The notes below the pieces were generated by a model, which saw nothing but the letters and a program-made list of their open reading frames with translations, did not search any database and had not been told where the DNA came from. DNA of 43,973 nt from Buttiauxella izardii (GTDB taxonomy: Bacteria; Pseudomonadota; Gammaproteobacteria; Enterobacterales; Enterobacteriaceae). Position numbers and translations under genes: made by a program. Positions 9,581 to 43,973 of the stretch are shown here, piece by piece. The stretch lies in contig NZ_QZWH01000032.1 in the NCBI RefSeq assembly GCF_003601925.1, positions 1-43,973 of the forward strand. Direction: 5' to 3'. Each line of letters starts with the position of its first letter. Position 1 is the stretch's first letter.

Positions 9581-10176
9581 CTGTCGTCGGAATTGGCCCA
9601 AGCGCTGCCCAATTACTGACTCTCCAGGGGCAGGCCGCCATTAACAACGCGCAAATTCTGGTGGGCGGCGCTCGTCACCTGGATTTATATGCTCATCTCG
9701 GCGCACAAAATCGCCTGTTAGATAGCGACCTCGACGGCTTAATCGACTGGCTGCGCGAGCATATCAACCAAAACATCGTGGTTCTGGCTTCCGGTGACCC
9801 GTTGATTTACGGCATCGGCAAACTATTGTCGGCGAATTTCACGACCGCAGAGCTGTGCATTATCCCCGGCATTAGCTCGATTCAATATCTGTGCGCCAGA
9901 GCGGCGGTGGATATGAATGACTTATGGATAACCAGCAGCCACGGACGCGAACCTGATTTCAATGCCATCGCCGCGCACCAAAAAGTGGCGATGGTGACTG
10001 ACAAAATCATCGGCCCTTATGCCATCGCCCAAGCTTTGCTCGCACGTGGCCTGAACCCCACTTTGATTATTGGCGAAAACCTGTCGTCCCCCGATGAACG
10101 AATCCATTCCCTGCGCGCCAGCGATGTGGCGCAGTCTTACGAGATGAACGTGGTGTTAATCCTCAATGAAAGATGA
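9574..10176 (+). CDS. cbiE: Cobalt-precorrin-7 C5-methyltransferase CbiE
   Basis: The 200-residue protein belongs to the tetrapyrrole methylase family. It shows the N-terminal motif [19 protein letters not shown] and the substrate/SAM loop [14 protein letters not shown]. It methylates C5; C15 methylation and decarboxylation are done by CbiT. The two are separate genes here, as in Salmonella, rather than the fused CobL of aerobic producers. It overlaps its neighbours by 7 and 11 bases. Confidence 0.96.
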
Positions 10177-10735
10177 TCTGTTTTTACGCGGCGCACGCGT
10201 GCCGATGACCAAAGAAGTGGTGCGCACTCAGGCGCTGGAAAGGTTACAGCTTCAGCACGCGCGGCGGTTGATCGACATCGGCGCGGGAACGGGCAGCGTC
10301 TCGCTTGAGGCGGCAATTCGTTACCCGGACTTGCAGGTTTCGGCGATTGAACGCAACCCCGACGCGCTGGTTTTGATGGCGGAAAACCGCGAACTTTTCG
10401 CCTGCCCGAACGTGGACATTATCAGCGGCTACGCACCCGTTGAGCTGGATGTGATGGCCGACGCGGTGTTTATCGGCGGCAGCGGCGGGCAACTTACCGA
10501 GCTTATCGACTGGTCGTTGGCGCATTTGTATCCCGGCGGGCGTTTAGTGATGACCTTCATCCTGATGGAAAATTTAACCTGCGCGTTAACTCACCTTGAG
10601 CAGTGCGCCATTCGCGATTTCGACTGCCTGCAACTGCAAGTTTCGACGCTGGCGGCGCTGGGCAGTGGCCACTACTTCAAACCGAACAATCCCACTTATT
10701 TGATTTCTTGCAGCAAGGAACAATCCCATGACTGA
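10166..10735 (+). CDS. cbiT: Cobalt-precorrin-6B C15-methyltransferase (decarboxylating) CbiT
   Basis: The product is 189 residues (Salmonella about 192), a class I Rossmann methyltransferase. The SAM-binding motif [16 protein letters not shown] lies at about residues 35-50, followed by [11 protein letters not shown] and the FIGGSGGQL loop. It methylates C15 and removes the C12 acetate carboxylate. The gene begins inside the end of cbiE and ends inside the start of cbiF. Confidence 0.96.
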
Positions 10736-39091: not shown

Positions 39092-39604
39092 TCATTGACT
39101 TCGTGTCCGAGACCTATCGGTATAGAGAGAACCTGAACGGCGGTGAAAAGCCTGAAGGCTAAGTCGTAAGACGGGGTTGTAAGCGTATTCCCTACTATAC
39201 GGCTCGCCCTTCAGCGGCGAGGACCGAGCCTTGGATCGATAATGAAAGCCTCTGCAGTCAGGGTATCCAGGACGGCCTTCGCCCTCAAGCCATTCATCAC
39301 CAATACGCTGTGTCGACCGGGGTGCAGGTTCGGACTGCCAGTCCTTCGGTAACGCTTCTCTGTCCAATGAAACAACCAGCGCTTCGGGGACCTGTATGCT
39401 CAGTAGCGTATATCCTTGAATAAGATCCTCTATTTCCAGGTGAACCAGTGTCTCCAGCACGCACAGTGCCCGGGAGCTGCCAAGATAAACGCAGTTTTTC
39501 CCCGGAGAGTTCCACCTGCCGCCATACGTTCTGGCCCCGTAACCGTCAAAGGCATTTGATGTGTAAGGTGTTTTTACCAGCCTGTAATAAGTCTGCTCAC
39601 TCAT
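39092..39604 (-). pseudogene. RES-domain toxin, probably broken in its C-terminal part
   Basis: The N-terminal 100 residues match RES toxins (NAD-degrading partners of Xre/MbcA antitoxins): YYRLVKTPYTSNAFDGYGAR, YGGRWNSPGKNCVYLGSS, LCVLETLVHLEIEDL and PRSTQRIGDEWL. After DEWLEGEG the frame turns into an Arg/Ser-rich sequence unlike the family. The next frame there still reads AVLDTLTAEAFIIDPRL-like text. A frameshift or deletion near 39275 is therefore likely and the toxin is probably inactive. The ATG at 39604 overlaps the stop of the antitoxin remnant by one base (TGATG). Confidence 0.75.
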
Positions 39605-40623: not shown

Positions 40624-40907
40624 TAAAATCCCTTATTTATTATTGTTGCAGGTAGCCTCCATACTGCCCGTATTGCTCCTTTGCGACAACGTTGTCCAGC
40701 AATTGATTATGACTGAAAAATAAATCTCACCCAGCCTGGAATGATTAAGCCTCCACATTCAATTCTGTAACATTCTATCCGCTGTATTTTTCAGTTCAAA
40801 CTTCCGCGTGTCGCTCAGTGCAGACCATAATCGCCGAGCATTTGTCCGCTGCGTGCCAGGGGGCGGACGTTGCTAAGCCCGCATAGTATTAATTGTAGGT
40901 GTTCGGG
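40624..40907. other. Intergenic region with a short GCGGAC inverted repeat
   Basis: No gene is apparent in these 284 bp. TGTCCGC (40843-40849) and GCGGAC (40863-40868) flank GTGCCAGG; a close relative of this arrangement occurs at 42916-42941. Confidence 0.4.
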
Positions 40908-41810
40908 TCACGTGTTCTCGTTTTGGAAAAAATGCAAAAACTGAATAGTCTGCTGATTCATGGTTTCAATGGCCGCCAGATGCTCAAGTTTTTTCCACTT
41001 AATACCAATAATGTGCAGCAAATCCCGGTAAAAAATGCTGAATTTCCCCCAAGGGTAAAGGATCGCTAGCCCGTTATCCATTTGTGCCAACCATGTGTGG
41101 CAATGGCTATTTAATTGAATGGTGTACGTTAGTACGTCGTTATATTGCTTCTCGAGTTCTGGTTTTAGTGCGCGTAGTTTTTCATGCTCTTGCTCAACGA
41201 GCACTTCTTGGTCCTGAAAAGCGCGGGCTTTGGTCCAAGCCCCTTTCGCTGCGAAATAGATAATCGGCGCCGCAACTAGCCCCCCGAGTACCAGCATACC
41301 GCCGCTCATTCCAGCTCCACCCGCAGCGAGCGCACCACCACCGAACCAGGCTAGTGTCGCATTGGTTGCAGCGACACCAGACAACGTGCCGATAGCCGTG
41401 CCCGTAGACGCGGTGCCAATGGCTGAAACAAGCGCCCACGCGCCCAATGCCATTGATCCACCCATAATCCCACCAAATCCCACGCTGAGTACGCCGGAAT
41501 ACTGTTGATTGAATAGTTCAATACTCTGCAATGCATGCATAGTTGGCCGGGACTGTTTATCGAAAGAGGTGGAAGTGGTCTCTAATAATTGCTCGATATT
41601 ATCCAGTTTAGTTTTTACGGTTTTTAGCGTGTCACCCAACTCACTAATGCGATAATCAATCTTGGCTTTTATTAACGTTACTTCGTCATACGTTGTTTTA
41701 TAGGAAGCATGAGTGGATTCGAAGCTTGCTTTCGCATGCTCTAATTCCAGCGATCCACCGAGCGTGACGATAGCATTCGCAGTGCGAAGCCCTGCTTTTA
41801 ATAATCCCAT
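40908..41810 (-). CDS. Glycine-rich membrane protein flanked by coiled coils, partner of the HNH gene
   Basis: The protein has 300 residues. Residues 22-85 are heptad-like and charged (KTVKTKLDNIEQLLETTS). Residues 106-190 are hydrophobic and glycine-rich with zipper-like spacing (GFGGIMGGSMALGAWALV, FGGGALAAGGAGMSGG, LVLGGLVAAPIIYFAAKG), long enough for two to four membrane helices. Residues 195-240 are again charged and helical. There is no signal peptide or catalytic motif. It ends the two-gene minus-strand unit with the HNH gene, which ends 16 bases upstream of its start. The fold suggests an oligomerising membrane effector; function and family are unknown to me. Confidence 0.75.
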   Translation of the reverse strand: MGLLKAGLRTANAIVTLGGSLELEHAKASFESTHASYKTTYDEVTLIKAKIDYRISELGDTLKTVKTKLDNIEQLLETTSTSFDKQSRPTMHALQSIELFNQQYSGVLSVGFGGIMGGSMALGAWALVSAIGTASTGTAIGTLSGVAATNATLAWFGGGALAAGGAGMSGGMLVLGGLVAAPIIYFAAKGAWTKARAFQDQEVLVEQEHEKLRALKPELEKQYNDVLTYTIQLNSHCHTWLAQMDNGLAILYPWGKFSIFYRDLLHIIGIKWKKLEHLAAIETMNQQTIQFLHFFQNENT

Positions 41811-41826
41811 GTTGTGCCTTGTATGG

Positions 41827-42798
41827 TTAAACCTGGATTGCTTTTATTATCAGGTGGGAATTGCCATACATTTCAGTAAACGTTTTCCACCTTTCGACAA
41901 GGGCTCCACGATTAACTTTGTACGAAACACGCAATTTTTTCCCATGATATCTTGTGTATTCTTTATCTTGGATCTGAGGAGCAAAGTAAATAAGTAACGA
42001 GTCAGGATCGATAGCAAATAGATCCAGATCGTACAAAGTGTGCATGTCACAACGCAATAATAGCCCATTGCTTACGTGGTTGTGTGTATCATTTTTGTAT
42101 GGAGTGATGTGCGCTGCTTCGAGGATATCAACGATTGCACAATCACTAATTGCGCATTGAGCCGCTAGGGTTATCAAATTGTCACGAAATGCTTTTTGCC
42201 CACGCCTTTGCTTAATTTGCCGTATAACTGCTTTTCTCTGATCTTTTTCATTGAGGAGAGTATCGTCACTGTCTGCTTCGGTAGGGCCAAGTTGATTGAC
42301 CCCGCCAAACAAATGATTTGCCCATTCAAAGTCAATTTCTTGAATTGAGCTTTGAACGTTGTAGCGTGGAGTGTTAGAAATTAAATCTGTTATGGAGACA
42401 GAATTAATGGGTTTGTAGTTTTTTTTATAATCAGCTTTAAATTCCAATGCGGGAGCGTCTTCTACCTTTGGGTAATCAAATTCATGCCCATTACTGCAGC
42501 GCCACTCTGGTTTTTTAAATTTCCGATGGATCAACTTTGCTGGAACGCAGTCCTCATAAGGGCATCGGTTACGAATTTTTATGTATGGTGCCGATGACAG
42601 ATTATCTATAACTGATATTCCCAGGACATTTTTTCTATCAGTAACTATGACAATATCCCCTTTTTTAACCTGCTTATGGTTTGGGACAAAGTTGTCATAT
42701 CTGTAAAAACTAGTTGAGTCGTCGTGATAACCATTATTCCCAAAGTACCGAAGATCATCCTGACCAACAGCTTTAAAAGACCATGCCTTCTGATTCAT
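41827..42798 (-). CDS. HNH endonuclease with N-terminal EVE/PUA-like and zinc-finger regions
   Basis: The protein has 323 residues. Residues 1-75 (KGDIVIVTDRKNVLGISVID) resemble an EVE/PUA-type beta-barrel of the kind that recognises modified bases. Residues 79-105 hold Cys79, Cys84, Cys101 and His105, a probable zinc site (CPYEDC, WRCSNGHEF). The C-terminal HNH domain (about 197-265) has Cys215/Cys220, EAAHITPY with His230, and NHVSNGLLLRCDMHTLYDL, the HNH_2 pattern seen in restriction-like nucleases. It probably cleaves DNA in the cytoplasm. It is the first gene of a unit with the glycine-rich membrane protein. The EVE assignment is tentative. Confidence 0.82.
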   Translation of the reverse strand: MNQKAWSFKAVGQDDLRYFGNNGYHDDSTSFYRYDNFVPNHKQVKKGDIVIVTDRKNVLGISVIDNLSSAPYIKIRNRCPYEDCVPAKLIHRKFKKPEWRCSNGHEFDYPKVEDAPALEFKADYKKNYKPINSVSITDLISNTPRYNVQSSIQEIDFEWANHLFGGVNQLGPTEADSDDTLLNEKDQRKAVIRQIKQRRGQKAFRDNLITLAAQCAISDCAIVDILEAAHITPYKNDTHNHVSNGLLLRCDMHTLYDLDLFAIDPDSLLIYFAPQIQDKEYTRYHGKKLRVSYKVNRGALVERWKTFTEMYGNSHLIIKAIQV

Positions 42799-43043
42799 CC
42801 TGTTGATTCCATGATAAAAGTAGCAGTTGAATCATAAAACATTAATTAGTTGATGAAAACAAGCAGTACAACGTTTCAGCTTCGGAACCGGAGTGATGCA
42901 GGATATTAATGCTGATGTCCGCCCTGTGCCAGGAGCGGACATTCCACACTTCACAATATGCTAACTGGACACATGACTGGCAGATTGCGCTAAACTCAAA
43001 TCCCTCTGAATTAACCAATCGGTCAACGTTAAAGGCAAGATGT
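42799..43043. other. Intergenic region between divergent HNH unit and kinase gene
   Basis: It holds the short inverted repeat TGTCCGC (42916-42922) / GCGGACA (42935-42941) with loop CCTGTGCCAGGA. No gene with supporting homology was found. Confidence 0.4.
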
Positions 43044-43783
43044 ATGTCTGATGATAATTTATCACGCATGGGACTGCCAAAGTGAGGCTTTTGGTGGATG
43101 ACGCAGGCAATCAAGTCATCGAAAAATTTCCTGTCAATGATGTCGAGTTCAGTTTTTACCAACATGCTGCCAGGCATCTAGCTCAAGTGGACATTTCTAC
43201 CCCAAAGCTGTTGTTTGCCGATCCGTCCATGCGCAAGTTAAAACTTGAGTATATTCCGCACCAAGTTGATCAGGACGAAGTTGCACGAGACGGCGTATTG
43301 GAAATTCTGTCTCGCTTACATTGCTATCCACCGGACCCTTCATGGGTTTATCACAATCACTCTTGGTCAGAATCAGCCCTCGAAAAATCTCTCATATTAT
43401 TGGTATTAACGGGTAGAGCAGCAAAACAGTTGCGCTATTTTCAGCAAGCAAGTGATGCTCTTTTCAGTGGTCATTGCTTAATTTCGGGTGACAGTAATGC
43501 GGGTAATTGGGGAAAAAGGGAGCACGGTGATTTAGTTCTTTTCGACTGGGAGAGATTCAGCACTGGTAGTCCAGCCATTGACCTTGCCCCAATTATAAAG
43601 GGGATGGGTTCTAAACAAAAGTTTATGGAGTTTGCTGAACGCTATAACTGTATATCGCGTAATTATAATCTTAGTGATTTAGCTAAAGAAATTGCAATTG
43701 CTAAAGCATGGATAGTTACCGAGGTTGTCATACTGCTTAATGAACGGCAGAAAAGTGATTTTCAATTCTATCTCAACTGGTAA
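43044..43783 (+). pseudogene. APH/choline-kinase-like phosphotransferase with damaged N-terminus
   Basis: The main frame (GTG 43082 to 43783, 233 residues) has the APH-fold C-terminal lobe. The catalytic loop is in CLISGDSNAGNWGKRE and the Mg-binding segment in LVLFDWERFSTGSPAIDLAP. The first strands of the N-terminal lobe are missing. A separate 13-codon frame from ATG 43044, with AAAGG upstream, reads MSDDNLSRMGLPK and stops inside the GTG (GTGA). That looks like the true N-terminus of such kinases, joined by a frameshift or deletion. If GTG 43082 is used, the protein lacks the glycine-rich nucleotide loop. The family includes small-molecule kinases; antibiotic resistance is not implied. 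Confidence 0.65.
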
Positions 43784-43951: not shown

Positions 43952-43973
43952 TCGGTACAAACCGGCCACATGG
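43952..43973 (+). mobile_element. Possible second IS481-like end cut by the right window edge
   Basis: CGGTACAAACCGGCCACATGG matches the outer end of the left element (CGGTACAAACCGGACACCTAGG on its minus strand) with few mismatches, but in the opposite orientation. The transposase would lie beyond the window. Confidence 0.5.

Follow-up and report, generated by a model that had tools for sequence, protein, structure and literature searches.

A putative EVE-HNH restriction enzyme beside a PDC-M09A-type protein in Buttiauxella, a pair probably joined by recombination

The contig NZ_QZWH01000032.1 of Buttiauxella izardii was analysed whole, as a single window of 43,973 nt that ends with the contig at 43973, and gene context is seen only within these limits. 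It contains two open reading frames (ORFs) on the minus strand with a 16-nt gap between them, as an earlier note made from the sequence alone had described; one codes for a predicted nuclease of 323 aa and the other for a glycine-rich membrane-type protein of 300 aa (Table 1). The probable account, in our view, is that recombination in a Buttiauxella ancestor joined a type IV restriction enzyme of the EVE-HNH kind to a PDC-M09A-type protein of other source, the membrane partner being an addition that is opportunistic or, possibly, functional.

The nuclease and its relatives

Both domains proposed for the nuclease in the earlier note were recovered. Residues 215-264 match HNH_2 (E = 3.6e-10, above the Pfam cut-off), and the EVE/PUA-like N-terminus is borne out by the predicted fold. 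Foldseek analysis of the model gives two matches with E < 0.001, both to chains of the EVE-HNH enzyme VcaM4I, and a profile of the nuclease relatives matches VcaM4I across its HNH region (E = 5e-8). Modification-dependent EVE-HNH enzymes form a published class (described in the available text of PMC7897488 and PMC7641849). The VcaM4I matches would thus place the nuclease among the type IV restriction enzymes, a known class whose cutting depends on DNA modification, and we assign it with good confidence to the EVE-HNH enzymes. Because a putative EVE-like sensor is combined with an HNH nuclease, the protein is best read as a restriction enzyme that depends on modified DNA, and this much is retained of the earlier suggestion that the protein senses modified or damaged phage DNA. 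The phage protein family phrog_21425, of unknown function, matches residues 2-307 (E = 1.1e-107). The predicted CxxxxC...CxxxH site is present as C79-x4-C84 / C101-x3-H105; across a 22-row alignment of nuclease relatives C84, C101 and His230 never vary, C79 is almost invariant, and H105 is neither invariant nor nearly so.

A genome-wide scan yields 16 nuclease loci, distributed among Buttiauxella, Citrobacter, Klebsiella, Enterobacter and Pantoea, Sphingobacterium and Chryseobacterium, and also Kitasatospora, Micromonospora and Streptomyces, with one in Pseudomonas that matches only in the HNH part. An order-level profile search with a threshold of 1e-20 picks up nuclease matches in 11 genomes out of 394, and blastn against 5426 Escherichia coli genomes finds nothing like a Citrobacter copy of the gene. 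Two Micromonospora relatives (L093 and L094) lie beside genes recognised by eye as DrmB-like and UvrD-like helicase genes.

Twenty-four nuclease loci were fetched, among them several that duplicate one genome. P2 gpQ, whole or as a fragment, is near the nuclease in L005, L054, L057, L086, L087 and L089, and gpA-like genes are near it in L055/L088, L056, L057, L086, L087 and L089; the nuclease is located between the gpA-like gene and gpQ in L057, L086, L087 and L089, and at the repressor end in L055 and L056. The region between gpA and gpQ is a defence hotspot of P2-like phages (available text of PMC9122126). Several nuclease relatives lie within this hotspot of P2-like prophages. In phage SEN8 the nuclease adjoins the portal gene, and a single further gene precedes the putative cos site. 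The Pantoea P2-like locus L089 also encodes, near the nuclease, a protein that appears ASCH-like by eye (9809-10219).

The next gene downstream of the nuclease is convergent in 16 of 21 relatives and on the same strand in the other five. It codes for a predicted transmembrane (TM) stretch in nine of the 21, versus 35 of 198 ORFs of 100-400 aa at the same loci; three of the nine (L007, L008 and L050) are one cassette, and only in L055 and L056 is the TM-type gene on the same strand as the nuclease. These last two (L055 7048-7869 and L056 7165-7974) code for 4-5-TM proteins located 25 and 67 nt downstream, which share 39% identity and bear no relation to the membrane-type protein of the window. 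The downstream TM genes fit a recurring membrane partner, in too few cases to show one.

The junction and the flanking palindromes

Adjacency of the two genes is rare. Among 392 family-level genomes a nuclease relative (E<=1e-20) is present in 16, in ten of them across most of the protein, and a relative of the membrane-type protein (E<=0.001) in 23; four genomes hold both (G000, G019, G165 and G334), and the genes are adjacent in two, the window's own and that of B. agrestis (G019), both Buttiauxella. In the genome-wide scan adjacency is seen at one of the 16 loci, again in B. agrestis, and the membrane-protein relative is present at one of the 24 fetched nuclease loci, where it is adjacent and once more of B. 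agrestis (L049). The earlier idea of a conserved two-gene unit thus fails the co-occurrence count that had been named beforehand, and we reject a conserved two-gene system on these numbers.

The two genes have different homologies at the DNA level. Similarity to seven nuclease relatives (L007-L009 and L035-L038) ends at 41863-41871, and similarity to the membrane gene of E. coli EC291 sets in at 41850, within the final codons of the nuclease ORF. Roughly the terminal dozen nuclease codons would therefore derive from, or from next to, the other cassette, and they fall beyond the conserved domain of the nuclease. Since the two homology blocks meet here, we infer that separately mobile genes were joined. 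The same 2-kb block is present with 96% identity in B. agrestis, in another neighbourhood and next to genes that look McrBC-like by eye. The dN/dS values since the split of the two copies are 0.157 and 0.227 for the two genes, and both are under purifying selection; truncation of the B. agrestis nuclease was considered and rejected, as its stop codon gives 321 aa versus 323.

The pair has at both ends a 24-25-bp palindrome (GTCCGC..TGGCAC..GCGGAC) in the same orientation. The genome contains four copies of this long form, two of them at the pair, and a backwards control has none; the shorter core occurs at 34 places versus 28 in the control, so that only the longer form is informative. Five other regions were fetched, and in two of them (L126 and L129) a single gene has copies on both sides, with four mismatches at most. 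We suggest that the palindromes helped gene exchange and may mark exchange sites. A role as a classical terminator is set aside because by eye no T run follows the palindrome, no promoter or terminator scan having been made.

Table 1. Features of the gene pair and its flanks in the B. izardii window.
Feature	Position	Strand	Basis
EVE-like / zinc-ribbon / HNH_2 nuclease gene, 323 aa	41827..42798	-	phrog_21425 family
EVE/PUA-like N-terminal domain, residues 1-166	42301..42798	-	predicted fold
Zinc-ribbon-type insertion within EVE-like domain (C79, C84, C101, H105)	42484..42564	-	alignment; putative metal binding
HNH_2 nuclease domain, residues about 199-290	41929..42204	-	HNH_2 match and alignment
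His230 codon	42109-42111	-	invariant in alignment
Glycine-rich coiled-coil membrane-type protein, 300 aa, PDC-M09A-like	40908..41810	-	PADLOC PDC-M09A match
Glycine-rich hydrophobic block, residues 105-193, with conserved ASTGTAI..LSG.AATNATLAW.GGG motif	41232..41498	-	alignment, hydrophobicity
Putative recombination junction	41850..41871	-	ends of nuclease-type and membrane-gene-type homology blocks
24-bp imperfect palindrome upstream of pair	42917..42940		repeat search
25-bp imperfect palindrome downstream of pair, oriented as upstream copy	40844..40868		repeat search
Block common to B. agrestis (G019), 96% identity, other neighbourhood there	40853..42882		DNA comparison

Elsewhere in the window, the toxin–antitoxin and insertion sequence debris of the earlier note is substantiated by a RES-domain toxin-like ORF (39092-39604, minus strand; E = 8.9e-24), the adjoining IS3-like and antitoxin-like fragments being recognised by eye only. 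An ORF at 43082-43783 (plus strand) resembles APH-like phosphotransferases (E = 0.0019, below the Pfam cut-off).

The glycine-rich module and its partners elsewhere

The 300-aa protein, which probably inserts in the membrane, has the glycine-rich hydrophobic block predicted for it, at approximately residues 105-193. Kyte-Doolittle means over 19 residues rise to 1.91 in this block, but only one non-overlapping 19-residue window reaches 1.6. In a model too poor to use (mean pLDDT 44), the flanks of the block come out as long helices. Alignments show the glycine-rich motif to be the most conserved part of the family. No Pfam domain above the cut-off was found in the protein, and two models of PADLOC PDC-M09A match it (E = 1.5e-19 and 8.2e-19). 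Holin-like profile matches are weak, one to residues 55-107 and thus mostly the coiled-coil part (E = 0.015), and one to the motif region of a single relative (E = 0.024). A solved-structure search with the alignment gave coiled-coil chance matches (viral glycoproteins) among the best 60 of 285.

A scan of viral contigs with the window protein gave no relative, and one with the motif alignment gave three. Among the 5426 E. coli genomes, blastn finds a close membrane gene in one and a 113-base motif match in a second. In E. coli EC291 (L003, 1-11742) the membrane gene stands alone within an island at tRNA-Leu, with no nuclease in its operon. This island also holds type I restriction genes, a PDC-S08 protein (nucleotidase), an integrase, and a convergent gene annotated as a phosphorothioate (PT)-dependent restriction enzyme with an HNH_2 domain.

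Forty-eight other loci with the motif were classed; this number excludes the window and B. agrestis, as well as a duplicate genome and a Vibrio plasmid. A predicted nuclease lies beside the glycine-rich module or is fused to it in 33 of these: an HNH-like B protein (13 loci), a B protein with an E-D-QxK pattern recognised by eye (12), a third partner type with invariant E, D and QLK (five, one of them fused), a fusion to Endonuclease I (L134; Pfam Endonuclease_1, E = 2.2e-29), a fusion with a VVVVEAKGG stretch (one) and an HNH-like neighbour (one). One more locus has a divergent HNH-like neighbour and was kept out of the 33. A related small coiled-coil-like protein is the partner in six, three are orphans (L003, L006 and L146, one seen with only about 1.5 kb of flank), and five are fragments or weak matches.

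Of the 33 predicted nucleases, the Endonuclease I fusion is the only one with a significant nuclease family match, the others being assigned from motifs by eye and a weak profile match. In NCBIfam the fusion has E = 2.1e-58, below the family's 372-bit cut-off, and nothing was found there for the other partner types; solved-structure searches with the two main B families returned no nuclease. The best match of the HNH-like B family to GmrSD_C has E = 0.034 (5/11 members) and stands among equally weak unrelated matches, and hhalign gives P 0.009 with a probability of 4.4%, four other regions giving P 0.23-0.51. When profiles of the HNH-like partner family and the window HNH family were compared nothing was found, in a test that is insensitive because the window's own HNH family also failed to match GmrSD_C (P 0.52). 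In L134 (679-2583, minus strand) a hydrophobic stretch precedes the Endonuclease I domain of the 634-aa fusion. PDC-M09B-type proteins of L071 (5460-7031) and its relatives have an HNH-like signature and a hydrophobic C-terminal part, with a weak nuclease assignment.

Readings of the pair and comparison with known systems

In the account that we favour, incoming DNA would be inspected by the EVE-like domain, zinc-ribbon insertion included, which would flip and read a modified base; cleavage close to that base would fall to the HNH domain. The nuclease can probably act alone, because its relatives are found in phages and defence islands without the membrane gene. Recombination in a Buttiauxella ancestor would have put the membrane gene directly downstream of it, giving the two-gene cassette that now occupies two different neighbourhoods. 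If the membrane protein helps the nuclease, the favoured form would be a tether that keeps the nuclease at the inner membrane, the entry site of phage DNA. Membrane-tethered restriction is possible.

That the two are neighbours without a functional link, in which recombination, perhaps at repeats, brought a type IV enzyme together with an independent gene for defence or a toxin, has in our estimate slightly less than an even chance. The junction of two unrelated homology blocks, the rarity of adjacency and the orphan membrane relatives all fit this, as does a window in which tblastn with 50 query proteins finds no PDC-M09B, YkgJ-type or WYL-type relative at 1e-3; however, both genes are intact and under purifying selection after joining, and the block has been kept together in two neighbourhoods. 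The selection on both genes and the block kept in two neighbourhoods, together with the 16-nt spacing, would suit a true two-gene system, in which the glycine-rich protein tethers the nuclease in a SNIPE-like manner so that modified phage DNA is cut at entry, or gates toxicity, and the lineage-specific pairing reflects an exchange of partners in a wider class of units made of membrane module plus DNase. The predicted nucleases at 33 of the 48 other module loci, with the Endonuclease_1 fusion among them, and the same-strand 4-5-TM genes of L055 and L056 also argue for it. Set against it are the single significant family match (L134), the failure of the main partner families to find a nuclease among solved structures, the six loci with a small coiled-coil-like partner and the three orphans, the close relative in EC291, and the convergent downstream gene of most nuclease relatives, and we regard it as somewhat unlikely.

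We think it doubtful, and rather unlikely, that the glycine-rich STGTAI-GGG module serves defence loci generally as a membrane platform for interchangeable DNases (HNH-like, PD-(D/E)XK-like and Endonuclease I), to which recombination in Buttiauxella would have added an EVE-HNH type IV enzyme, the two genes then forming a restriction system that screens incoming DNA at the membrane for modified bases. A pore that acts in abortive infection, opening in response to infection or to the nuclease at work and depolarising the membrane, is suggested by the glycine-rich hydrophobic block and the weak holin-like matches, but the conserved polar motif and the frequent nuclease partners fit anchoring equally, and we consider such a pore quite improbable.

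The closest counterpart of the membrane-type protein is PDC-M09, a PADLOC defence candidate of proteins A and B, whose A component it matches; the EVE-HNH nuclease occupies the place of PDC-M09B. The PADLOC scan of the neighbouring nuclease gave HNH models only and no PDC-M09B, and with the A protein found and an adjacent B protein not, membership of PDC-M09 is rejected. Among the top-ranked open-licence PMC papers listed there is none on PDC-M09 or such a pair, and two papers using PDC-M names cover, in their available text, PDC-M13 and PDC-M30, not M09. Should the two proteins cooperate, the pair would hint at a role for these uncharacterised candidates.

Membrane-bound anti-phage nucleases do exist, as exemplified by SNIPE, a single protein with a TM helix, DUF4041 and GIY-YIG according to the available text of PMC13190303. 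The resemblance is a possible analogy only, that of a nuclease held at the inner membrane, and SNIPE membership is rejected since neither window protein has a DUF4041 or GIY-YIG Pfam match at E up to 5. Cooperation of the pair would bring together the sensing of modified bases and the cutting of DNA at the membrane, both of them known ideas; even if the two do not cooperate, the locus illustrates assembly of defence cassettes by recombination.

The HNH_2-type C-terminal nuclease is shared with PT-dependent HNH restriction enzymes (NF045808), but the match scores 21.5 versus a cut-off of 180 bits and is confined to residues 193-278, and this assignment is rejected. Enzymes of that kind include SprMcrA and ScoMcrA. 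VcaM4I (PDB 6YEX) is the best structural match, and like the window nuclease it is a protein of some 310-320 aa with an EVE domain and then an HNH domain (available text of PMC7897488). The structural matches have only 11-13% identity, and the window nuclease differs in its zinc-ribbon-type insertion, the word "zinc" being absent from the VcaM4I paper in that same text. The locus would single out a form of EVE-HNH enzyme with a zinc ribbon, which occurs in Enterobacteriaceae, Bacteroidota and Actinomycetota.
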